Position numbers and translations under genes: made by a program
Source: Phellopilus nigrolimitatus
Lineage: Eukaryota > Basidiomycota > Agaricomycetes > Hymenochaetales > Hymenochaetaceae
Direction: 5' to 3'
DNA length: 29,314 nucleotides
Assembly: GCA_021029095.1 (NCBI GenBank)
Contig: JAJOHG010000322.1
Coordinates: 1 to 29,314, forward strand
The notes under the pieces: model-generated
The model's input: only the letters and a program-made list of their open reading frames with translations
Databases searched by the model: none
What the model was told of the DNA's origin: nothing
Part shown: one piece after another, positions 4,950 through 26,904 of the stretch
Layout of the letters: each line of letters opens with the position of its first letter
How positions within the stretch are numbered: position 1 is the stretch's first letter

Positions 4950-5498
4950 TGTAGCTTGGTGAGACAAGTCCGCGCAACGGCCTTACAGTAGTACACCTAG
5001 TACGAAGTAAGCTCAGTCGTTTGCGCGGTGTGCGAACGTCTTTTCATATAGCAAACTAACCTAGTACGAAGTAAGCTAGTTTAATGTAGTAATAAGTAAA
5101 AGTATAATAGAAACGTTATAATGTCCGAAAGCTCACCTCAGTCGTTTGCGCGGTGTGCGAACGTCTGAGGTGGCCATAAGAATAAAGAAGCTTTTTATAC
5201 TAATGGGTTTTCTGGCTGCGGAGAGCCGCTTTTACGATACGGAAAGAGGGGGGAACGATAAAGAAAGATAAAGACAAATAATCAATGAGTAAATGACTAT
5301 CTATCTGGGCAATGTAAAACGAGGGGTGTCGGGCGGCGGTCGGGAGTGGTGCGCGGGTGAACAGAGATCGCGCGCCAGCCAATCCCAGAGCAGGGAGCCT
5401 CGGGCTCGCTGAGCCGAGACGCTGCGCTCGTGACCGATCGCTCGAGCACGCAACCAGTGCGTACTCGGCACGGGACTCCGCCGGCTTGGATTCCAACA
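4950..5498 (-). repeat. copia 3' LTR (549 bp)
   Basis: On the element strand it starts TGTTGGAATCC and ends CAAGCTACA (TG...CA). It appears identical to 16716-17264. GATCG lies outside at 4945-4949 and the polypurine tract inside at 5499-5507. It carries a TATA box at 5191-5199 (minus), two copies of a 30-bp repeat (5012-5041, 5137-5166) and two copies of a 19-bp repeat (4995-5013, 5059-5077). Confidence 0.95.
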
Positions 5499-5507
5499 CT
5501 CCCCCTC
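5499..5507 (-). other. polypurine tract of the copia element
   Basis: GAGGGGGAG on the minus strand abuts the TGTTGG start of the 3' LTR, as expected for the plus-strand primer of reverse transcription. The TGA stop codon of pol (5508-5506) overlaps its upstream edge, so almost no 3' untranslated sequence precedes the LTR. Confidence 0.85.
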
Positions 5508-6202
5508 AAGCCGAGAGGAGCCCGAGCGCGGCCGCGAAATGCTTCACCTTGAACGAAGGGAGTGGCTTCGTGAGCGCGTCGGCAACCATGTCGGCGGTCG
5601 GGCAGTACGTCAACTTGATGGATCCGTTTTCGCAAACCCAGCGCAGGAAGTGATAGCGAATATCGATGTGCTTTGTGCGCGCGTGGTATTGGTGATCCTT
5701 CGTGAGGGCGATGGCAGACTGGTTGTCGGAGAAGAGGACAGTCGGTCCGTCGATCGGCTTGAAAATTTGCGTGATGAGCTGGCGAAGCCAAATCGCCTCC
5801 TTCGCGGCGTGCGTCGCCGCGACGTACTCGCTCTCGGTCGTCGAGAGCGAGACAATCTCCTGTCGTTTCGAATACCAGGAAACAGCTCCGCCGTCAATCA
5901 AAAAAGCATTACCTGAGATCGCGCGCCGGTCCTCCTGCATGCTCCCATCCGCATCAGCGTACCCCTTCATTCCACCATCCCCCGCGTCTCCAGTTCCTCC
6001 GTACGTGAGCCGGAGCTTGCGCGAGCCCTTCAGGTAGCGAAAAACCCGCTTTACGGCCTCCCAATGCGCGGGTCCGGGGTCGTTTGAGAAACGCGACAGT
6101 AGCGTCACGGCGAACGCGATGTCCGGCCGTGTCGCCATCGCCGCGTACATGAGTGATCCAAGCGCTTCGCGATACGGTACGCCGCGCATCTGGGCGTGGT
6201 CC

Positions 6203-6213
6203 ATCAGGAAAAT
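6203..6213 (+). repeat. left terminal inverted repeat
   Basis: ATCAGGAAAAT, the exact reverse complement of 12780-12790, preceded by GTCC. It is followed after GT by ATTTCCTGCAT, so the left end alone can also fold back on itself (6203-6226). Confidence 0.85.
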
Positions 6214-6285
6214 GTATTTCCTGCATTGCACTGTAGCACTGTGTAGTGTCTGTAGTGTCAATTGCACATTGTGCATAGGCACATA

Positions 6286-6524
6286 TAGCACTGTAGGAGT
6301 CTGTAGCTCCTTGTAGCTGTGCAGTATATAGCTTCATAGCACTTGTAAGAGTCTGTAGCTCCCTGTAGCTGTGTAGTATATAGCTTCATAGCACTTGTAG
6401 CAGTCTGTAGCTCCCTGTAGCCGTGTAGTATATAGTTTGGTAGCACCTGTAGCTGTATAGTTGTATAGCTTGGCAGCACTGTAGGAGTCTGTAGCTCTCT
6501 GTAGCTGTGTAGTATATAGCTTGC
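6286..6524. repeat. 52-bp tandem repeat at the left end of the DNA element
   Basis: About five units, one shortened, of a sequence starting TAGCACTTGTAAGAGTCTGT and continuing through GTAGCTCCCTGTAGCTGTGTAG and TATATAGCTT. Units begin near 6286, 6338, 6390, 6442 (short) and 6474. Because the period leaves frames open, long repetitive open frames appear on the minus strand; these are not genes. Confidence 0.85.
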
Positions 6525-6526
6525 CA

Positions 6527-6606
6527 GCTTGGGAAGCATATGGAAGGGCCATAGGAAATAGCTTGTTGACTGGGAAGCATATGGAAGGCTCATAGAAAAT
6601 AGCTTA
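6527..6606. repeat. two-copy short tandem repeat
   Basis: Two units built on GGGAAGCATATGGAAGG...CATAG.AAATAGCTT, next to the 52-bp array. They are part of the AT-rich left end of the DNA element. Confidence 0.7.
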
Positions 6607-7640
6607 GAGATCCAGAAGCATATAAATGATTTGTAGCAAATATCTCTCTGGGCTGCAAAGACCTCTTTTAAACACAATTTCATTATCCCTGGAGGGAAAA
6701 AAAAGTCTACAGCCTCCAACTCAAGGATGAGGGAGAGAAGGGTGAAACAAGAGAGACAGAGCTTCATGGCAGGAGGTGGTGGTCTTTACCAGATGGCTTG
6801 GTGACAATGAATGCACAGTTGAACCTTGAAAAAGTCAGCAATACATGTTCATAGCCCATAGTCACTGGGAAAACACTGCTGGCCCAGACCCTGGCAGCAA
6901 GCTATTGATACAATTGAGGGGGAATCTGTATGTGGCATTTGTTAAGTGTTTCTCCAGTGTCTGAAGCTCTTTCATAGTGTTCTTCATGTGCAAGAATGTG
7001 GACAATACCCGCAGGTTTTGATAACTTGTTTGCCTCTCCTGCTACAGATACTGCACCAATGCAAATATGTGTTTTTGCATACTGTGGACCTTAACAGCAC
7101 ACACATTTCGCATATACAATCACAAAATTTGGAGCAGAACATGCAGTACTTTTAGCAAAATGCTAAAACCACAGATCAACCCGTGCTATGCTCTAGGATG
7201 GATGCAGGCAAGTTATCCATTATCAATATTACACACAGAGGCAAAATGGGCAATCACTGGGAAAGAATAGCTGCGGGCTGCAGGCACAGGTGTGGAGACA
7301 GATGTTTTGTATCAATCTTAATGTGAAGATCGATACATGTCACAAATGTGACATGTCACACTTTTGCGAATTTTATGGCTAGCCACACTGTAGAGTCTAG
7401 CATGACTCCCTGGAACCAGTGGGTATCCCGTGGCCCGACTTGGACAGATCCGTATTCATGGATCACCCGTGCACGGTGACCCGTGGGAAACGGGTTTTCG
7501 TGGGTCCGGGTTGAGAGTTTTTCTAAAACCTGTGGGTAATTCACACAGGTTTTCAAGCTTAGAATGGCCAAGGTACATTTAATTGTATATTGTATGTATG
7601 TACAGTATGTATGGTTAATATGCTTCATAATCTACACATG
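6607..7640. other. AT-rich left arm of the DNA element, no gene
   Basis: No open frame with recognisable content on either strand. It contains a stretch of CCCGTG/ACGGGT words around 7425-7515 and an inverted-repeat partner at 7347-7374. Base composition changes sharply near 7640, where the GC-rich gene cargo begins. Confidence 0.6.
7347..7374 (+). repeat. internal inverted repeat, left copy
   Basis: TGTGACATGTCACACTTTTG followed by CGAATTTT, matching the reverse complement of 9546-9574 (TGTGACATATCACAATTTTA then CGAAATTTT) at about 25 of 29 positions. The pair encloses the Rtf1 fragment and the 3' part of the MADS fragment. Confidence 0.65.
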
Positions 7641-7702
7641 TACGCCCCCAGGTCCACAGCAAAAAAGGAGCCCCGCCCGCGTCCGCCCGCCGAAAGCAGC
7701 GC

Positions 7703-9245
7703 CTAAAAGTCGACCAGGTCCACTTCGACGGAGCTCGCGACGATGCTCTTGAACGCACGCTTCCCGAGGGCGCGGGCGACACGGAGCGGGCGCCGTCCCC
7801 GAGCGCAAGCGACGCGCCGAGCATTGTCGTCCCGTTCGGCGAGTCCCTGCGGAGATCACGCGATGCGCAAAGTCAGTCGGCGAACGCGCGCAGCAGCAAA
7901 AAAAAAAGCAGAAACAGGACGCACTTGAAAACGCCCGGCGTGCCCGCCCGCGAGCCGTTCGCAGCAGCGGCCGCGCGCGCCAGGCGCGCCTTCTTCCTGC
8001 GCTCCGCCTCGGCGACTTCCGCACGGCGCACGGCGTCGCGGTTCACCTGCCGGTTGCGCTCGTTCACCTTCGCGAGGATGTCCTCCTTCTCGGAGCGCGC
8101 GGGCGCGCCCACGCCCTGCCGCGCGTCGAGCGCGGCGAGCTGCACCTCGAGCGCCGCGCTCTCCGCGAAGTCGCGGCGCATCTGGGCGAGCGCGCGCATG
8201 CGCACGAGCTCCGCGCGCTCAAGTGCAGCCTTCGTCGCGGTCGTGCGCGACTTCGGCAGGCTGCGGTTCAGCTCCGCCTTGCGCGCGAGGATCGCGGCGA
8301 CGTCCGCCTGTGCGCGCGTTTCCAGCAGCAGCTCTCTGGGGGAGAGGGGCAAGCACGTACCTCCGTTAATGAATGGCTCGTCAGCTTGGCGAACTGTTGC
8401 AGCTTCTTCTCGATCGTGCGCTTCGCAGGGAGCTTGACTTTCTCATGTTCACATGTTGCTTTGAACCGGCACCACTCGTCCTGTACCGGACTGTTTGTCC
8501 AGCAACCAGGCATCGGAACAAAAGGTCGATGATCCTACCTCTGTGAACGCCGCATTGAAAACCTTGTCCATCGGGAACACTTTGATAGCCGCGCCGTGCC
8601 GCAGCTCGAGGCTGGTGTCGAAGTACTCGTTTTCAATCTTATAGGGCTTAGCTGGGTTTGCGCCGAGGTCTTTGGGAGGCGCGCGCTCAGAACACTAGAA
8701 ACAAGACACAGGCGAGGACGCAACACATACTTGCGATCTCGCAAATTCGATACACGGGCTGGCCTTGGTCCGCACCAATAAGGTAGCGCACCCATGAACC
8801 TTTGCAGTGCACCAACCGTCAAAAGGTTCGAGGGACGACAGAATGTCGGGCAAGTTACCTTTGACGAAATCCTCGAACCACGGCATCAATGCGTACTTAA
8901 CAAGCTTGTTGCGTGAAAGTCGGCACTTCTCGAGGTCTTCCAGAGTGAGATCTTCGTCCTCGGGCTTTGCCTTGTTTAGGAGGCACGATTCGCGCTCCTC
9001 TTGCTGCTCGAGTTTGCTGATCTGCCCGTCTTCCTCGTCTTCAGAAGACATTTCCATGTCCATCGGTGACGAAGAACGCTCCCTCTTCGGCGAGTTGATC
9101 CTCGTCTGTTGGCAGTTTAGAAGAAGGATGCGGACCAGCAATGAACAACGCACCCGCTTCTTCTCACTCTTCGCCTTCCTCTTCGCCTTCAGTTCGTCCA
9201 ACTTACGTGTCTTCTCCTTCGTTGCTCCCCTCACTTGATGAGCGC
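7703..9245 (-). pseudogene. Rtf1 (Paf1 complex subunit) gene fragment with introns
   Basis: Rtf1 is a nuclear transcription-elongation factor whose Plus3 domain binds Spt5. Read on the minus strand: a basic segment (KEKTRKLDELKAKRK, about 9225), an acidic serine-rich linker, and the start of Plus3 (LEKCRLSRNKLVKYALMPWF, about 8940-8870). Then come WVRYLIGA and PVYRICEIA across an intron, KPYKIENEYFDTSLEL (about 8650), MDKVFNAAFTE, DEWCRFKATCEHEKVKLP, a long charged helical region (8340-7950) and a typical C-terminus ASSVEVDLVDF followed by TAG at 7705-7703. Introns are still present (9152-9106 and others), so the copy came from DNA. The N-terminal exons are missing. One intron near 8345 is only about 25 nt, and the reading frame is uncertain around 8690. 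It sits within the mobile element, so it is a captured fragment, not the functional gene. Confidence 0.85.
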
Positions 9246-9339
9246 CTAGGAAGCATTATCAAAGAGAAGTAATTAGTGCACAGAATCCAGTAGTCACACT
9301 TTGCAGCCTTAGACACGTTGTCCTTGCGCTATGCGCGTA

Positions 9340-9800
9340 GCATCTGATCGAGATTGCGTTTGTCCTGGGAGCGGGCCGTGCGGCACGTTGAGGCAGGCCT
9401 AGATGAGGTTCTTGCCTTCGGGCTGCATGACGAGCGGCTGCAGCTTGGCGGTGGTGAAGTTATACACGAGCCCGGTCTCAGAGACGACGAGCAGGAGCGC
9501 CTGCGTTCCGGTGAGCATCGATAACTGAGAGATCAGGACTTAAGCAAAATTTCGTAAAATTGTGATATGTCACAAATGTAACGGTTACGGCCCAAAAAGG
9601 ACACGTTGAACTTGACTTTTTCTTGCCACACGTCTTTTTCTCTTGCTTCCCATCTGTCTTCCTGTCCGGACGCAGCTTTGGAAGCAGGCGCATAACGCTG
9701 CGCGTGAATATCGCGACGACTCAAGCTTTTCCGCCACCTCGTCGCTCGTAAGACTGGATGAGGACAAGGACCGCAATACCAACGATCCTTCGCTGTCTCT
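9340..9800 (-). pseudogene. SRF/Mcm1-type MADS-box gene fragment
   Basis: On the minus strand an exon beginning at 9524 (after an intron end CTCTCAG) reads LSMLTGTQALLLVVSETGLV and then YNFTTAKLQPLVMQPEGKNLI. This is the second half of a MADS box of the SRF/Mcm1 class, a DNA-binding and dimerisation domain. An in-frame TAG (9401-9399) follows where a glutamine codon is expected, and then ACLNVPHGPLPG. Upstream, around 9640-9690, basic sequence resembling the start of the MADS box (KRKRRVARK) is present, but the central helix is missing or destroyed by frameshifts. It could not make a working factor. It lies directly beside the Rtf1 fragment, in the same orientation. Confidence 0.75.
9546..9574 (-). 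repeat. internal inverted repeat, right copy
   Basis: Partner of 7347-7374 in opposite orientation, lying in what was an intron of the MADS-box fragment just upstream of its LSMLTGTQ exon. It may be one end of an inner insertion or an unrelated MITE scar. Confidence 0.65.
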
Positions 9801-9829
9801 TTCGTTCTGATCGGTACGTTCTTGGTATA

Positions 9830-10190
9830 TTCTGCAGTTTTCGAGCGGCTGAAATTGTCCGAATCCCCCGAGTCCATCGAGCGAAACACACACTCCCCTC
9901 GTCGTCGAATCGCCAATCCGCGTCCTCGTCGATTACGCACCGTGGACACCCCGCCCGAGGTCCGACAGCTCGCGCCCCCCGCGTGCACAAACTGCTCCGC
10001 GTACGGCATCCTGCTCGACGCGTTCCGCTACGTGTGCTCAACGTGCGGGGAGGGCACGCCACGCACGCGCGCGAGTTCCGGTGCGAATGGGCACGCGAAC
10101 AGGAGGGGCAAGGCGCGCGGGCGCGGACGTCATTGTCGACGTGTCGGTGTTCGACTCGCTCGCGTACCCGCCGCGTGCACATGAACGGTA
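9830..10190 (+). pseudogene. fragment with a CxxC...CxxC zinc-ribbon-like motif
   Basis: A plus-strand frame contains CTNCSAYGILLDAFRYVCST followed by CGEG (about 9985-10055), two CxxC pairs about 15 residues apart, typical of a small zinc-binding fold. I do not recognise the protein. The reading then shifts frame to DVIVDVSVFDSLAYPPRAHE and ends at a possible GTAAGC donor near 10190. It may be the 5' part of the kinase gene that follows or a separate captured fragment. Confidence 0.4.
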
Positions 10191-10257
10191 AGCCATTTTC
10201 TTGCGTGCCCGCGTCTGCTGCTCACATTCCCCTCCGCACCCTCCGCGGCGACAGCAG

Positions 10258-12191
10258 CATGGCCGCCGCGACCTCGCCCTCTCGTGCCAGAGCACCGTCA
10301 ACCTCAACGACTTATTCACACCACAATAGGAACCCCCAGAGCATGCAGCACAGCGCCGCCTTTCGCTGCCTAGTGCACCGCCGCCTGCCCCTGACCTGTA
10401 CTACGCCGCCGAGCCCGCGCTCCACTCGTCGCCCCCGCCTGCCTCCGCTCCCACCCACATCGACGTTTCCCCCGAGCACACGTTCGCCCCGCGCTCGCGC
10501 TCCACGTCCAAGTCGGGCCCTTCGAGCGCTTCGGGGTCGGCCTCAGGCTCTATCTCGGGCTCGGGCAAGAAGGGTACGCACTTCATGAGCAGCGCGAAGA
10601 AGCCCGAGATTAGCACTCCGTACGACCCCGTGCACCTGACGGTTCAACGCGAGCTCGGGCGAATTCACGGCCCTGCCATGCAAGTGGCAGCTGCTGCTGC
10701 AGGACCCGGTGTAGCAAAAGAACCCGCAGGCCGTCATGAAGATCACCAGGATCTACGAGATCGGCAGAACTGCGCCGCCGCCACCAAAGAAACCGATTTC
10801 GGCACCGTCCCCATACCGCCCCGCACCTGCTCCTCCACCGTCGCTACCTAGTATCCCCGCGCTCGACCGCACGATGTCGCAGCGGCTGCCCAAGTCGCCC
10901 TCCTTGTCTGGAGGCGTCGGCAGGAGCAACACCACGAGCGGCGCGCGGCGCTCTCCCGTACCGCAGCCGCAGCCGCAACCTCATGCCCCGCAATACGCAG
11001 CTCCACCCACCTCGGCACCGCCGTGGCTACCCGCGAAGCAGGCGCCCGCGAGCCCGACGCCGGCGCCGCCCCCGCCGCCTCCCTCTTCCGGGTCAGCGTC
11101 CGCCCACGTGCCACCACCGCATGCGCATGCGCCCCCGCCCCCGAATGTCGCGCCGTCGAGCCAGGGCAACAGTGCGATGCTGCGGCGGCGCGAGAAGAAG
11201 AAGGACAAGGTGAACGAGGAGGACGTGGTGCGGCTCCTCGCGCCACCCGAACATCGTCACTACATCGACTCGTTCCTCCACCGCAACGAGCTCTGGGTCA
11301 TGATGGAATACATGGAAGGCGGCTCGCTCACCGACGTCGTCACCGCCAGCCTCATGACCGAGGGGCAGATTGCGGCCGTCAGCCGCGAGACATGCCAGGG
11401 TCTCGAGTGCCTCCACCGCCACGGTGTCATTCATCGCGACAACAAGAGTGACAACGTGCTCCTCAGCCTCACGGGTGATATCAAACTCAGTGCGTGCCAC
11501 CCGTCGCGCTTGTGCGCTGCGCCTAGCTGATTGAACTTGCCTCCAGCCGACTTCAGATTCTTGCGCGCAGATTTCGGACCCCGCGCACTCGAAGCGCACG
11601 ACGATGGTTGGCACGCCGTACTGGATGGCGCGCTAGGTCGTCACCCGGAAAGAGCACGGCCCAAAGGTCGACATCTGGGGTCTCGGCATCAAGGTCATTG
11701 GTGCGTCCCTGCGACTTGACCTTCCATTTAGCTAACTTCTAATACCTTAGAATTCCCCCTTTGATTAATAATTACAAAACTAGAAAAGGTCGAAGGCGAG
11801 CCGCCCTATCTGAACTAGTACCCGCTGAAGGCGCTGTACCTGATCGCAACGAATGGGACACCGACGATCGCAAATCCGGAGTCGCTGTCGCCGACGTTCC
11901 GTGATTACCTCGCGCGCACGCTTGAGGTGGACGCGGAGAAGAGGCCCAACGCCGCACAGTTACTACAGGTGCGTCACTTCGATTTCTTTGTTCATTCCGA
12001 GGCCCCCCTTTTTTCTTTTTGTTTTCGGATTTTAGTTGTCTAGATACTTGTTTGCGTTTCGTCTCAGAGCACTAACTGCTTATCTTTTCCCCCCTAAACG
12101 TCTGCAGCATGCATTTTTCAAGCTATCCGAGCCGCTGCGCACGCTCACACCGCTCATCAAGGCCGCGCGCGAGCTCGCGAAGTCGAAGTAG
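10258..12191 (+). pseudogene. PAK/Ste20-family protein kinase gene fragment
   Basis: PAK kinases are Rho-GTPase effectors. The plus strand shows a CRIB domain (KPEISTPYDPVHLT, about 10600, then FNASSGEFTALP after a small frameshifting deletion) and a TAG at 10712-10714. A proline-rich linker follows (10760-11150), then REKKKDKVNEEDVVR. The ATP-binding lobe is deleted: sequence jumps to YIDSFLHRNELWVMMEYMEG. Then come the catalytic loop HRDNKSDN (11432-11455, asparagine where isoleucine or leucine is usual), a frameshifted DFG region, VGTPYWMA followed by TAG (11634-11636), another TAG (11817-11819), and a C-terminus HAFFKLSEPLRTLTPLIKAA with stop at 12189-12191. Introns remain at 11490-11546, about 11701-11788 and 11969-12107. 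It cannot encode an active kinase. Confidence 0.85.
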
Positions 12192-12530
12192 ATAACGGAG
12201 AGCCTGTATAGAGCTGCAGAAAAGGGGAGCAGAAATGTTTACGACATTTTCTATCTAGGTCTCAGGGGTTCACGGCTCGCCGCCTCTTGAGTATGAGGTG
12301 AGTGCCTATCCTGTATCTTCCCATCCCATTTCCTCCGCTTTCTCTTATGAAGCTTCTCCCTCCCCCTCACCCCCCTCCCCCCCTTTTTTATTTAATTTAA
12401 ATTACCCATATGTAGTGGCTTCCCAATGTCCGTATGTAGAGCTGCAATATAGAACATTTCTCACAATAGCACTGCCCCTATATATTCTGCACAAACTACA
12501 GGCCAACAGACTAAACAGACTATGCAGCTA

Positions 12531-12655
12531 CAGTGCTATGAACTTCAGTGCTACAGGCCTACAGTGCTATGAACATCAGTGCTACAGGCCTACAGTGCTA
12601 TGTAACTATGAACTTCAGTGCTACAGGCCTACAGTGCTACAGGCCTACAGAGCTA
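12531..12655. repeat. tandem repeat at the right end of the DNA element
   Basis: Units of about 30 bp built from CAGTGCTATGAACTT and CAGTGCTACAGGCCTA. The reverse complement contains TGTAGCACTG, the same word that starts the left-end repeats, so the two ends are loosely inverted beyond the TIRs. The open frames across it are repeat artefacts. The rest of 12250-12780 is AT-rich and has no gene. Confidence 0.8.
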
Positions 12656-12779
12656 CAGACACCTACAGACTATGGCACTATGGGCTCCTATATAGCGCTA
12701 TATAAGGGGGGGATATCTATGGAGTACTATGGAGCTATATTTTCTATATAGTCCTATATAGGTCTGTATAGCTTTGGTA

Positions 12780-12790
12780 ATTTTCCTGAT
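12780..12790 (-). repeat. right terminal inverted repeat
   Basis: ATTTTCCTGAT on the plus strand, followed by GTCC at 12791-12794, the second copy of the target duplication. Read through in the copia frame it encodes the aberrant residues after TAQD. Confidence 0.85.
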
Positions 12791-15700
12791 GTCCTGCGCG
12801 GTCTTCGGGCCCTGCGTGCTGTGTAAGTGCAGGTTCGGGTCCATCGGCGACGAAACGGGCTTGAGTTCCTCAAAATTGAAACGGCCGAGGATGGAGTTTA
12901 TGTATGCTGATTGCGACAGTGAGAGCGTCTTTATGTCGCGGTTTCGTTGGACTTCGATTCCCAGCAGCCAGTGCAGTGAGCCTAGGTCCGTAACTTCGAC
13001 ATAGCGAGACAGGCCAGCCTTGAGTGAGGACACGAGCGAGGCGGTAGTGGCAGCGATCGTGCAGTCGTCGACATGCACGACGACGATGGTCACGTCACAC
13101 CCATCGTGACGGAAAAAGACTGCTTGGTCCACGTCACAACGTGTCAATCCAAGCTCGTCGACAAATATCCATGTCAGTTTCTGGTACCACCTCCGTCCAC
13201 TCTGCTTCAACCCATACAAGGTCTTGCGCAACCTCAAAACTTTCGTGCCCGCATCGCGCGGTGCATATCCGGGAGGGTGCCGCATGAAAATCACCTCATC
13301 CGGCTCTAGCTCACCGTTAAGGTAAGCTCCCTTGATATCAACTTGCTCGAGCTCCAGGTCCAATCGCGCGGCCATCGCGAGTGTCGCACGGATGGATGCA
13401 AGCTTCGCAACGGGCGCGAAGGTGTCGAAGTAATCGATCCCCGGTACCTGGCTGAATCCCTGCGCGACAAGTCGAGCTTTGCGACGGACGACGTTTCCGG
13501 CCGCGTCCTTTTTTATCTTGAAGACCCACTTGGACCCGACAACGTTGGCACCCGCCGGAGGCTCCTCCAGCACCCACGTACCAGCCGCGCGAAGTGTCCC
13601 CAATTCCTCATTCACCGCGCGCTCCCATTCCGACCATTCCGGCAGGCGTTTCGCCTCCGCGAGCGAGCGCGGCTCGAGTCCCTCGGCCTCTTCCATCGCG
13701 GCCGCAAACTCATATTCGACGTCGTAATCGTCTTCCTCCACCGCCAGGTTCGCGGCCTCCTCCTCCTGATCAACATACTCGCGCAATGTGCGCATTCCTC
13801 GCGGAACGGCACCATCACGGCGCCAATGCGACGGCGCTCCCTCTCCGGACTCCAGGCGCTTAAGATAAGCCGATGGCGCGCGAACTCGCCGTTCGCGCGG
13901 CTCTTGTGCTTCCGCCGGAAGATGAGACACTGCTGGTCTCTCCGGGGCCGGCTGTGGCTGTTCCGCTGGTGGATCGCTCGCTGGTTCGGTGGGATCAGCG
14001 GATCCTTGGGGATTTTCGGCGGGTGGTGGCTGCGTCGACGGATTTTCGGCGGGCGGTGTCGCTGTCGGCGGTGAGTTTTTCGATGTCGTTTCGTTCTCTA
14101 CTCCACCGTCAAGTTCCTCCCCCTCGAGACGACTCGAAATGTCTCCGGGGTCGAAATATACATTACGCTCGACACTGATTGTTTTCTTTTCCGGCCAAAA
14201 AATCCTCTGCCCGTTTGAGGTCTTATCGAAACCCATCCACCGGCCTTCACGCGCGCGCGGGGCGAGCTTAGAGCTCGTGTCGTCGTGCACCCAGCACTTG
14301 GATCCCCAGACGCGCAGTCCGCGAAGATCGGGTTTCCGCCCGGTCATCGCTTCGTGCGGCGTCTTGTCTTTCAGCGCGCGGGTCGGGGTTCGGTTCTTCA
14401 ACCAAACGGCGTGTCCAGCCGCCTCCGCCCACAAAAACTTCGGCATTCGGCTCGCGTGCAACATCGCGCGGACCTTCTCGAGTATTGTCCGGTTTAGCCG
14501 TTCCGCGACGCCATTGTGTTGCGGAGTGTCGTGAACGGTAAGTTTTTGCTTTGTACCTTTACTATTCAAATACATGACAAATTCTTTGCCAGTGTATTCG
14601 CCGCCGCGGTCCGAATGAAGGATTTGGACCTTCGCATTCATCTGGGTTTCGGCCCAGGCCTCGAAATGACGGTAAGAACGAAAAACGTCGCTCTTTTTCT
14701 TCAGCAGGTATAACTTCGTCACGCGCGTCGCATCGTCCGTGAATGAGACATAGTAGTGTCGCCCGCCAAGCGAACGAGTCGGCGATGGTCCCCATACATC
14801 GCTATGGACCTCGCCTCCGAATTGCGCAGCGCGCTCTCCGTCTCGTTCACGCGCGATCATGCGGCGCGTCGCTTTGCCGTATACGCAGGACTCGCAGAGT
14901 GTCGGCGTCGGTCCAGACGTGTCGAGCCGCAACCCCGTAACCCATCCATTGCATACTAACCGCTCCGCAACCTTAGGCGAGATATGGCCCATGCGAGCGT
15001 GGAGCTCCATGAGGCTCAACGTCTCCTCGGCCGCATTCGCCGCGTCGCGCAGCGTTGGGTCGGCCGACTCGTGAGCAAACCGGTACAGGCCCTTACTGGA
15101 GCGCAAAACCTCGCCAATGCAATTCCCAGCCGCGTCGCGGAGAACACACTTGTTCCCGCCGAAAACTGCGAAGTAGTCCGCACGATCGAGCGCGCCGACG
15201 GACACCAGCGTGAATCCGACTTCGGGAGAATAAAGAACTTCGGTAAGCGTTAAATTTGTCGGTGTCTCACCATTCGGGAGTTGAATAGCTAAATCTCCCT
15301 CTCCCATAGCGTGAAACGTCTGCTTGTTTGCGGCGTGCAAACTCTTCGGCGCCGTCTCGACGAAATTTGTGAAGTCCTCGCGGTACGGCGAGATATGGCG
15401 CGTAGAGCCCGAATCGAGGATCGCGCGACGCGCATCGTCGCTTTCGCGAAGGTGAATAACCTGCGCGATCTCCTCTTCATCGCTATCCTCCTCGCTCACG
15501 TCGCTTTCGGGGTACGAGCTCGAAAGCTCGTCATCCTCGCTGTCCTCGTCGTCAGACCAAAAATCAGCCGGCTCGCTGGCTTCGCTATCGGACATGTCAA
15601 TGAGGTCGGGCATCGAGCCCGTCTCATCGTCTTCGTCATTCTCGTCATCCGACGAGTCCCAGGCTGCGTTACAGCAGTCCCAAACACCATCCGAGTCCGA

Positions 15701-16704
15701 GCCCGAGTCGACAGCCGCGTTTGCGCTGTCCTTCGGCTTCTCCTTGCCCGACGGTTTCCTCGGCTTCGGGCACTTCGCGCGAAGATGCCCGGTCTCGCCA
15801 CAGTTCCAGCAAGCTCCGCGCGGTTTCGCGTCATTTCTCGGCTTGCCTTTCGGCGCAGTACTGACATATAGCGCTTCGTCCTTCTCTTTAGGTCCACGCG
15901 CGGGTTCCTTTCGCTTCGCGAGTCGCTCGCGCTTCTGGCGGTCGGCCTCGTCCGATATAATATGGATCAAGACCTCAGGATCGACTTCGCGGAGTGAGGC
16001 AGCCTGCGCATCGGTGAGCGGCTGCGCTGTGATCGACGCGACGTTTCGTGCCGCAATCTCCGCCGAAGTTAGCTGCGCAGACGCGAAGGTCGCCAGCCGG
16101 TTCGGAATTGCAGTAATAATTGTCGAACGGAAATCCTTGTCGGAGATCTCAACACCCGACTGCGCCAGCGTCTCGCGGCGCATACGCAAGTCACTCAAGA
16201 ACTCGCGGACGTCGGCATCCCCGGGGCATCGTGTCTCGAGGAATTCAGTACGTAGCGAAGTCTGCGCGAAGGCCGACTTCGACGTAAACTCACGTACCAC
16301 CGCGTTCCAGCGCGCGGTACAATCCGCCAAGTTTCCGACTTGAATAAGGGTCGAGTCGGCGAGGCGCTGAGACAGTAAGTACATCGCGATGTCTTCGTCT
16401 TTGTCCCAGGTCTCACGGCGTGCGTCAAGGTCGTCATTCGGATCGGCTTGACCATTCGCTACCGCAGCAGTAGCGACAGCAGCAGCAACCGGCTCGGGGC
16501 GCGTTGACGATCCGTCGAAGTGCCCCCACTTCCCTTTCGCCTTCACGGCGGCCTGGAAGCGCATCCGGTATATCACCCAGTTCGCTCCGCTCGTCGCGAG
16601 CTTCGGAACTGAAGTAGGGAGGGTGTCGTGCGAGCTAGACATGAGTGGCGAAAATTGTGTATGTCGTACAAAATGAAAATTCGGCTTCGCTCAGTGGCTA
16701 GCAA

Positions 16705-16715
16705 GGCTCATAACC
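16705..16715 (-). other. primer binding site, matching an internal tRNA-Met segment
   Basis: Directly inside the 5' LTR the element reads GGTTATGAGCC. Its complement GGCTCATAACC matches the anticodon stem-loop of eukaryotic initiator tRNA-Met (loop with CAT) and not a tRNA 3' CCA end. Drosophila copia and relatives are known to prime from such a half-tRNA. That this element does so is inferred from the 11-base match and its position. Confidence 0.7.
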
Positions 16716-16760
16716 TGTAGCTTGGTGAGACAAGTCCGCGCAACGGCCTTACAGTAGTAC

Positions 16761-16938
16761 ACCTAGTACGAAGTAAGCTCAGTCGTTTGCGCGGTGTGCG
16801 AACGTCTTTTCATATAGCAAACTAACCTAGTACGAAGTAAGCTAGTTTAATGTAGTAATAAGTAAAAGTATAATAGAAACGTTATAATGTCCGAAAGCTC
16901 ACCTCAGTCGTTTGCGCGGTGTGCGAACGTCTGAGGTG
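16761..16938 (-). repeat. repeated motifs and hairpin in the LTR leader
   Basis: Two direct copies of a 30-bp motif (16778-16807 and 16903-16932; core GTCGTTTGCGCGGTGTGCGA) and two of a 19-bp motif (16761-16779, 16825-16843; core CCTAGTACGAAGTAAGC). The distal 30-bp copy is enclosed by CACCTCAG and CTGAGGTG (16900-16938), so it can fold into a stem of 8 perfect pairs with a partly paired interior. The same array is at 4995-5172. It lies downstream of the TATA box, thus probably in RNA; packaging, translation or reverse-transcription control are possible roles (inference). Confidence 0.65.
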
Positions 16939-16956
16939 GCCATAAGAATAAAGAAG

Positions 16957-16965
16957 CTTTTTATA
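16957..16965 (-). promoter_or_regulatory. TATA box of the copia 5' LTR
   Basis: TATAAAAAG on the minus strand, about 300 bases into the LTR, is the only good TATA box seen there. The same sequence is at 5191-5199 in the 3' LTR. A start about 25-35 bases downstream would place the repeated 30-bp motifs and the hairpin in the transcribed leader. The start site itself is inferred. Confidence 0.6.
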
Positions 16966-17428
16966 CTAATGGGTTTTCTGGCTGCGGAGAGCCGCTTTTA
17001 CGATACGGAAAGAGGGGGGAACGATAAAGAAAGATAAAGACAAATAATCAATGAGTAAATGACTATCTATCTGGGCAATGTAAAACGAGGGGTGTCGGGC
17101 GGCGGTCGGGAGTGGTGCGCGGGTGAACAGAGATCGCGCGCCAGCCAATCCCAGAGCAGGGAGCCTCGGGCTCGCTGAGCCGAGACGCTGCGCTCGTGAC
17201 CGATCGCTCGAGCACGCAACCAGTGCGTACTCGGCACGGGACTCCGCCGGCTTGGATTCCAACAGATCGTGTCACGAATGGTCGGATCGTGACATATTAC
17301 ACATACTAGCCTTCAATATAAAACATACTACGGACAGTTACAGTCAGTTTCACATGTAGGATCTCAGAATTTGATATTCCTGAAATGGAGTACACTGTAT
17401 AGAAACAAAATACAATAGAACAGAGACA

Positions 17429-19206
17429 TCAGGTGAATTCCAGGTGAGTTATTCTTTTTTGCAAAAGCTCGAGGGTTTCTTCCTCATATTGAGAAAGTAT
17501 ATCAGAATGCTTCTGAAAAATAAGGACAGCTTTTCTGGCTATCTCCAGAGCCTTTCTATGCTGTCCAGTTACTTCCAAAACATCAGAGTATGTTTCAAGA
17601 GCCATCCCATAATCTGTATCATATTTTTGGAATTGCCTCTCCTTTAGAAGAGACTCAAAAAGTGCAACAGAGTCCTGAATATGGACAACAGCCTCTGTGT
17701 GTCTTCCCAGGCTTAAGAAGCTGCAAGACAGGTTATTTAGAGAATTAGCAAGTTCAGGATTGAACCTGTCTGGGTCCTTCTGTGAAAGGGCCTGTCTGAT
17801 GGTCACTTCTTTCTGGCTAGCCTCCAGTGCTTCCTTGTGTCTGTCCAGGTTTGACAAGTTGAAGGACAAGTTATGAAGAGAGACTGCAAGAACAGGATTA
17901 AATCTGTTTGGGTCCTTCTCTGAAAGAGCCTGTCTGATGGTGACTGCTTTCTGGATAACCTCCAGTGCCTCCTCATGCCTATCCAGTTTTGTCAAGTCAA
18001 GAGACATGTTATGAAGAGAGACAGCAAGATCAGAATCATAGAGATTTCCATGACCTTCTGCTAACTTCTGAATGACATCAGTGTTTAGCCTGTTAAGCTG
18101 CAATGATTCATTGTGAAGTCCTATGTCATGTAAGACAAGTGCAAGTGTAAGGGCTCTATAAAACCATGCAATAGTAGGCATCTCTGAAGTATGATCATCA
18201 AATATTCGAAGAAGGGAAATGACTTCAATCAGAGCATCCTCTGTCTTTCTCTTGGGGTTGGAGTAATCAGGCTTGTGGTAAAGGTAGTCTGGAGTGTAAT
18301 ACTGTGGAAGAGCAGTTCTATCTGGGGAGAATAAAACTGGCTCTTTTCCCAAAGCCTGTTCCAGTGCTTTGATTTTGAGAGACAATGCCCAGGCATCAGC
18401 ATCTTTGCTGGCAGCAGCTAGATCCTAAATCCAAAAGATTGTCTAAGCAGATATGCAATTCATACTGAACAGGAAGTTTACAAGAGAAGCTTTCTTCAAA
18501 GACTTCTTCTTCGCCGTCGTGTCCATCTCATCAATGCCGAGAAGTCTGTCAGCTTGCGCCGGATCTCTCTGAGCTGCTTGGATAAGAATTGTCAAATCCT
18601 GGGCCAAAGCTATCGCCCCAGACAGGATCTCAGGAGAACTTGCACTAGTTTGAGCAACGATCTGTACGTTAGTCCTCACCTGAAAAAGCACAGTCAGCAA
18701 TAGGCTGAGTCGATCTGAGAAACAATCTACCATGAATCCAAGCTTAGCCTCAGCAATTTCGTTTCTCAGTTCCTTTATTTCATCTTTGATTTTAGTAGCA
18801 GTGAGCAGAGCTAAGCCTTTACGAATGGGATTCTTGCTCTGCTGCTGGACCAAAAGTTTCTGGGATCGATCGAGAAGGTTTTCGAGACCACTGGAAGGAT
18901 TCAGCATCCAGCAGTGAATGATGTGTGGGTTAACATACCTCTTCAACAGCGACATATTGTGATCCAAGCCAGGAAGATTGTCGCTGACATGACCCTTTCG
19001 AAGGCCTTCGAGATCTTCGATCTCATTGAGAAGTTTAGCAGAAAGTCGATACAATGCTGTCTGATTCTCTCGACACTGAAACCATGACAATCATATTTTA
19101 AGCACTTTCTGTTAGGATAAACTAATATGCGACGTACCTCTTCGAGAGCTTCCTTTATCTTCCATGCACGCTCGACGAGGTCAGGAATGCCTGTTGCAAA
19201 ATCCAT
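17429..19206 (-). CDS. NLR-like helical domain plus TPR protein, lacking NACHT
   Basis: Three exons join in phase 0: 19206-19138, 19075-18482 and 18424-17429 (introns 62 and 57 nt, GT-AG), giving 552 residues. Residues 1-220 are predicted mostly helical (VERAWKIKEALEEV, KIKDEIKELRNEIAEAKLGF, LSGAIALAQDLTILIQ), resembling the N-terminal helical domains of fungal STAND/NLR proteins. Residues from about 350 are tetratricopeptide repeats with the 42-residue period and ALSEKDPNRFNP-type linkers common in basidiomycete NACHT-TPR proteins. No P-loop or Walker B lies between them. Frame-neutral introns of 48 nt (18938-18891) and perhaps 51 nt just upstream of 18680 are possible. Likely a cytosolic scaffold or receptor; ligand unknown. 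Its 3' end lies 130 bp from the solo LTR. Confidence 0.75.
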
Positions 19207-26633: not shown

Positions 26634-26904
26634 CAGGTGGGTCAGAAAAGTCTTCGGCCCCCCTTAGAAAGGAAAGTGGTTCCCTTCTGCGTCGTTCACA
26701 CAGAAAAACGTCAAGAAATGCCTTGTAACTATGAGAGCCTTTGCCTCAGATAAATATGAGAAACAGAAACTATGTATTGATTTGTTTTTCTGGATGAGTT
26801 GAGCTGGCAGCGTACCATAGACAATCGTGAGTGGCGCCACGAGACGACGCCGCTACGCAGGCGGGAATCGCTTTCCTTTTTAAGGGGGGCCGAAGACTTT
26901 TCTG
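26634..26904. mobile_element. Tc1/mariner-like MITE
   Basis: Long inverted ends share AGAAAAGTCTTCGGCCCCCC followed by TTA.AAAGGAAAG (left about 26644-26675, right about 26904-26870 on the minus strand). Both ends start with CAG next to the dinucleotide TA (26632-26633 and 26905-26906), the target duplication typical of Tc1/mariner. The right end lacks about 9 bases (GTGGGTCAG) found in the left end. It is about 271 bp with no coding capacity, hence a MITE. Confidence 0.75.

Follow-up and report, generated by a model that had tools for sequence, protein, structure and literature searches.

The window analysed here is a 29,314-nucleotide stretch of the genome of the basidiomycete Phellopilus nigrolimitatus (Hymenochaetales; contig JAJOHG010000322.1, designated C249), and it was compared with the genome of the fungus (56.4 Mb, 635 contigs). 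Within the window, a copia retrotransposon is interrupted by a DNA element that is bordered by short inverted repeats and holds pieces related to Rtf1, a MADS-box gene and a PAK kinase, together with a zinc-ribbon-like ('CxxC') repeat block; the gene pieces lie on both strands (Table 1). The segment at 6202-12791 is, very probably, a transposase-less DNA transposon with PlavakaB-type ends that is full of broken host-gene pieces and likely to be moved by the Plavaka transposase of larger relatives.

Table 1 Features of the interrupted copia retrotransposon and of the element within it (window positions; LTR, long terminal repeat)
Feature	Position	Strand	Remarks
Host copia element	4950..17264	-	LTRs 4950-5498 and 16716-17264, 549/549 identical; 5-bp duplication GATCG
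Target duplication TC, left	6200..6201	n/a	2 bp; from flank comparison
Whole non-autonomous element, PlavakaB-type ends	6202..12791	+ (end at 6202 called left)	6,590 bp; from copy comparison
Left terminal inverted repeat	6202..6213	+	12 bp, CATCAGGAAAAT
Left subterminal tandem repeats	6285..6623		Unit lengths include 52, 84 and 41 bp; common to other copies
Truncated hAT-type unit with Rtf1 piece	7391..9368	-	One end kept near 7391, other lost at 9366-9368
Start of Rtf1 Plus-3 domain	8857..8937	-	27/109 positions; below Pfam cut-off
MADS (SRF-TF) piece	9456..9530	-	Profile 24-48 of 48; below Pfam cut-off
Zinc-ribbon-like ('CxxC') repeat block	9660..10247	+	
PAK kinase block, broken	10246..12230	+	12230 is the end of the query, border not proven
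Kinase-domain match	11192..11491	+	Pfam profile 40-140 of 263; positions 1-39 missing
Right subterminal tandem repeats	12528..12660		Unit lengths include 31 and 16 bp; common to other copies
Right terminal inverted repeat	12780..12791	-	12 bp, ATTTTCCTGATG, complement of CATCAGGAAAAT
Target duplication TC, right	12792..12793	n/a	2 bp; from flank comparison

Borders and target site of the element

Inverted repeats had been recognized at both borders in the initial annotation, and they are present there; comparison of copies lengthens them from 11 to 12 bp and moves each border one base further out, to 6202-12791. This length follows from the complete copies, in which C closes every left flank and G opens every right flank. 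The same comparison corrects the GTCC duplication reported at first to a 2-bp duplication of TC: because the bases next to the repeat match its outer C and G, the duplication in the window mimics one of 4 bp. Only 2 bp are duplicated in the other six complete copies compared. Furthermore, 2-bp duplications were found in 10 of the 12 paired-end copies with flanks read, and their sequences vary: TC in the window copy, TG in C24, AG in C68, TT in C25, AA in C146, AT in C2 and CA in C457, followed by CT at C24:158676-168923, TA in C555 and TT in C113. Assuming equal dinucleotide frequencies, simple arithmetic puts the chance of at least 10 duplications in 12 copies at about 5e-11. This count leaves out the copies with a single end (C36, C622, C500, C154, C67, C335 and C231) as well as C434, which is likely the other haplotype of C146 because it has the same right flank, is 99.9% identical to that copy and is cut by a contig end.

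An uninterrupted relative of the copia element at C522 aligns with 99.1% identity (1,254 bp) on one side of the insertion and 99.7% (1,504 bp) on the other, and only GTCC is common to both sides of the join. Through this relative, the restoration of copia that had been claimed holds at the level of DNA comparison. Since the copia LTRs are identical and an uninterrupted relative exists, the insertion is recent. A second empty site, C346:105793-107312, represents the uninterrupted form of the site occupied in C68, with 3 differences in 128 bases around the join. This stretch of C346 and the sites in C68 and C67 belong to one repeat, which was hit at different points by elements with CATCAGG ends.

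Copies of the element elsewhere in the genome

Both ends of the element recur elsewhere, with the first 24 bases of the left end found at 10 places in the genome without mismatch; the segment is thus not unique sequence. A near-identical second copy, C24:701870-708459, shows 3 differences in 6,590 bases from the window copy and is flanked by TG instead of TC, and the genome also holds five more complete non-autonomous insertions of the same family. The copies in C68 and C25 are 98.9% identical and have differing duplications, AG and TT. C146 and C2 have the right 2.77 kb in common at 98.4% identity, and their left parts align piecewise at 78-90%, as expected from exchange between copies. Across the copies, the ends are common and the cargo differs. 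Judged by these sequence comparisons, the element is real, recently mobile and non-autonomous, with PlavakaB ends and Pack-type cargo.

Assignment to the Plavaka lineage

PlavakaB elements are described as having 5'-CATCA..TGATG-3' termini and target duplications of 2 or 3 bp, and they are placed in the CACTA/EnSpm-Mirage-Chapaev-Transib clade (Kojima 2025, PMC12730594). The window family has such termini, and its 2-bp duplications fall within that range. The earlier impression that the inverted repeats and the duplication point to no named superfamily is therefore replaced by a match of the ends to PlavakaB, a CACTA-related lineage. CACTA/EnSpm proper, which has 5'-CAC..GTG-3' ends and a 3-bp duplication, is rejected by the CATCA ends and the 2 bp. 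In Pack-MULEs the inverted repeats are long and the duplications measure about 9 bp; an element with a 12-bp repeat and a 2-bp duplication does not belong with them.

Transposase sequences were located with the Plavaka profile PF18759. No match was found in the window element or in any non-autonomous copy, in agreement with the lack of transposase reported at first. The genome contains 18 matches, 8 of which represent the main domain, and the motif CATCAGGAAAWT occurs 58 times compared with 7 occurrences of a reversed control. Three of the eight main-domain loci (C113, C390 and C555) have a CATCAGGAAAAT site at a distance of 4.9-5.1 kb, with its partner another 22.5-23.0 kb from that site, and their end sequences are those of a sister family at C24:158676-168923. 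The main-domain locus in C346 is situated between two terminal-repeat sites 31.8 kb apart, and the transposase contig C83 has one CATCAGGAAAAT site. The left end of the C346 unit is 94-97% identical to the window family and its right end 80-86%, and its arms recur at 98.5% in C500 (7.1 kb) and at 98.6% in C622 (2.7 kb). With regard to the autonomous copy that it had been suggested to look for, units of 22.5-31.8 kb with the same terminal repeat contain the Plavaka transposase; the duplications are clean in C555 and C113, and the flanks of C390 and C346 are unpaired. From its termini, its duplication and these transposase-bearing relatives, all read from sequence, we file the element as a non-autonomous Pack-type transposon with PlavakaB ends.

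Cargo of the window element and of its copies

For the PAK kinase piece, the Pfam match (Pkinase, 3.4e-18) and the best PDB match (PAK1, 1.6e-27) agree, as the initial annotation had it. The piece lacks a 192-base stretch kept in C68, its Pkinase match starts at profile position 40 compared with position 1 in C25, and stops follow further along. The carried fragments are probably passengers, given a kinase that is devoid of the glycine-loop part and has stops. The window MADS piece scores 19.4 bits for SRF-TF against a cut-off of 26, a weak value, and the same block in C25 reaches 3e-8. The zinc-ribbon-like block, taken earlier for a CxxC host protein, has no Pfam family above the cut-off and one relative in the protein database, from the same species, and it occurs at no fewer than 21 further loci in the genome (40 of 104 candidates scored); we regard it as a recurrent repeat, and its reading as a host gene is not supported. 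With no transposase, inverted repeats, a target duplication and fragments from more than one host locus, the element has the features by which Pack-TYPE transposons are recognized.

A selection of 40 frames, taken from C346 and five copies, was scanned against Pfam at 0.01. A match was obtained for 12, of which 10 exceeded the curated cut-off, and 28 had none. The window and C24 copies carry Rtf1, MADS and PAK pieces. The cargo of C25 comprises ribosomal protein L5 (1.9e-21), MADS (3e-8), PBD (1.3e-22) and kinase (1.2e-19) sequences, that of C457 comprises L5 (7.2e-11 and 1e-13), and C2 gave a match to glutamate dehydrogenase GDH2 under the cut-off (2.5e-4). In the sister family at C24:158676-168923, GDH2 (2.8e-17) and L5 (2.8e-15) were found. 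A frame at L036:7412-8053 that resembled a dioxygenase by eye reached no more than a JmjC match below threshold (0.082), and this candidate was dropped.

The Rtf1 piece yielded a Plus-3 match of 4.5e-4 (21.2 bits, below the cut-off of 27) and one PDB match, to a Paf1-complex component (E 0.8). The block around it matches at least 11 other large loci (40 of 138 candidates scored), and in 8 of 11 such loci the match starts at query positions 14-16, corresponding to 7389-7391. The unit as read at C9:67112-69574 (L053:113-2575), 89.5% identical to the window unit over 2,036 columns, measures 2,463 bp, has the ends TAGAGCATAACACGAGTA and its near complement, and is flanked by the 8-bp duplication GCGGGCGT. 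hAT transposons have inverted ends and 8-bp duplications. Both features are present at C9 and in a related 2.6-kb unit at C346:135878-138489 (L039:1879-4490), which has 18-bp ends TAGGGCATACCACGAGTC and the 8-bp duplication TCAGCTTA; in the window copy, one of the ends is missing. The Rtf1-bearing unit is, by its ends and the duplication at C9, assigned to the hAT type. Because the Rtf1 piece lies inside this truncated unit, a host gene was not its immediate source: the piece itself, despite its weak profile score, stands as first described, and its direct capture does not. The arrangement is read as a nest: the copia retrotransposon holds a PlavakaB-ended element that carries gene pieces, and this in turn holds an hAT-type remnant with a gene piece of its own.

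The Rtf1-carrying unit is seemingly multicopy, with C9 and at least 10 similar loci. The C346 unit carries an acyl-CoA synthetase fragment (AMP-binding, 1.1e-14), is absent from the C622 copy, and adds a second type of transposon with gene cargo to those of the genome. In addition, a 386-bp unit with hAT-type ends and the 8-bp duplication CTATTAGC is located within the element copy in C36 (L041:1618-2003).

Origin of the cargo

We propose that the element would be cut and pasted in trans by the Plavaka transposase of its larger relatives, as the shared ends suggest. Its cargo may have been gained piecemeal, partly through insertion and truncation of other gene-carrying transposons and partly through copying of host DNA while breaks in the element are repaired, and recombination may then have swapped it from one copy to another. 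Over 998 query bases, the PAK piece shares 94% identity with C457:170735-171729, a locus with an open frame of 401 codons that lies 2.2 kb from the element at C457:173904. This match extends across parts of the window sequence that give no protein reading, and therefore genomic DNA, not spliced RNA, was probably copied. PAK-like blocks are also present at C612, C616, C179 and C625, so that C457 is one candidate donor among several. At C625:201648-205148, PAK and Rtf1 blocks stand about 300 bp apart in an orientation unlike that of the window. MADS profile matches lie outside known elements at C168, C35 and C190, and inside or beside element ends at C36, C68, C25, C457, C24 and C249. C101 and C141, which are without the part bearing the hAT-type end, are no more than candidate Rtf1 donors. 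Capture by fusion of tandem insertions, a model described for Pack-TYPE elements (PMC8903248), would be expected to leave internal relics of the ends. Across 10 element sequences (C434 being cut by a contig end), no end-like stretch was detected in the interior beyond 900 bases from either end, and this route was rejected; the bare 8-mer TCCTGATG, found twice inside C346 and twice inside C24:158676-168923, was taken for chance.

All fragments could instead have arrived in gene-carrying hAT-type units that were later broken up, with Plavaka elements never copying host DNA. The truncated unit around Rtf1 and the acyl-CoA synthetase-bearing unit that C346 holds and C622 lacks are consistent with this explanation. 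However, no 18-bp hAT-type ends (up to 5 mismatches) were found around the window MADS or PAK blocks, although heavily decayed ends would escape such a search, and we consider this origin unlikely. Still less probable is retention of the fragments because they are active, for example by giving rise to antisense or small RNA directed at the parental genes: both strands do bear pieces, and several subfamilies retain MADS and PAK, but the window kinase has suffered stops and losses and C25 is in a different state, with the first part of the kinase domain kept. Helitrons have neither inverted repeats nor target duplications and insert between A and T, and trimming one base per side would give the window element a TC..CTGA form between A and T; the outer C-A and T-G are the same in every copy read and thus part of the element, and the 12-bp inverted repeats with varied 2-bp duplications leave a Helitron a negligible chance. 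The Pack-type gene-capturing behaviour proposed at the outset is accordingly borne out by shared ends and differing cargo, but in neither the Helitron nor the Pack-MULE form.

Several observations weigh against the preferred explanation. Two of the 12 paired-end copies have unpaired flanks (CA/CT at C346, CG/TA at C390), and three of the eight main transposase loci (C482, C489 and C68:225611) are without a nearby CATCAGGAAAWT site. C346 is the only transposase-bearing unit with closely window-like ends, yet it is one of the two with unpaired flanks, and the repeat that it interrupts on the left, which runs on in C68 and C67, is not resumed in its right flank. Recombination or an assembly join may account for this unit; its standing as a clean autonomous partner is weakened, and because its outer flanks do not belong together we take it as evidence of kinship rather than as one intact element. 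One frame upstream at the C457 PAK locus has one stop, and the PAK and MADS donors are candidate loci, named from alignment and profile matches. No whole independent Rtf1 donor was found, all seven Plus-3 matches in the genome lying within Rtf1-block loci. Capture in progress was not observed, and capture is inferred.

Two further features were noted in the window: an open frame at 17429-18424, with repeats that look TPR-like by eye and a 138-bp tandem DNA repeat, and, at 26643-26904, inverted arms of 50 nt that are 90% complementary and 162 nt apart, perhaps a small inverted-repeat element.

Discussion

The window element has in common with the PlavakaB families of Kojima 2025 (PMC12730594) the 5'-CATCA..TGATG-3' termini, the 2-bp duplications and, in its larger relatives, PF18759; the families in that report are rebuilt around transposase and TET/JBP genes, whereas the window element lacks a transposase and carries several host-gene fragments. 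With plant Pack-CACTA and other Pack-TYPE elements (PMC8903248) it shares the non-autonomous state, inverted repeats with a target duplication, coding DNA from multiple loci, and common ends around different insides. It differs from the elements described there in being fungal, in having CATCA rather than CACTA ends, in showing no tandem-fusion relics, and in containing one nested hAT-type piece.

Among fungi, transduplication of histone H3 by hAT elements has been reported in Dothideomycetes, which are ascomycetes (PMC3538342, PMC6710886). There, as here, host gene sequence is multiplied in an inverted-repeat transposon; those cases concern hAT elements, ascomycetes and one gene, whereas the present one concerns a Plavaka-type element, a basidiomycete and several genes, which vary from copy to copy. 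Helitrons of Pleurotus ostreatus are likewise basidiomycete DNA transposons with extra genes, but their ends and mechanism differ, and the report on them comes to the conclusion that host gene fragments are not part of their load (PMC4289320). We found no account of gene-fragment capture by Plavaka or by basidiomycete inverted-repeat transposons in the titles and abstracts of the open-licence literature. As far as searched, the element is therefore known in kind and new in lineage and host group.

Gene models for kinase, MADS and Rtf1 sequences drawn from such elements would be scored as paralogues, which calls for caution in annotation. Beyond the window, PlavakaB elements might constitute a running gene-shuffling system that gathers fragments of housekeeping and regulatory genes, absorbs gene-carrying hAT-type units, swaps cargo between copies through recombination and still spreads the resulting chimeras, also into young retrotransposons; we hold this evenly balanced between true and false. 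Most documented cases of gene-fragment capture by inverted-repeat transposons come from plants, and, if true, the gene-shuffling reading would make this the first Pack-type system for Plavaka and for a basidiomycete inverted-repeat transposon. Within a single genome the family combines common ends, cargo that varies, copies that are nearly identical and relatives with a transposase, and so offers a system in which the way such elements capture genes could be followed.

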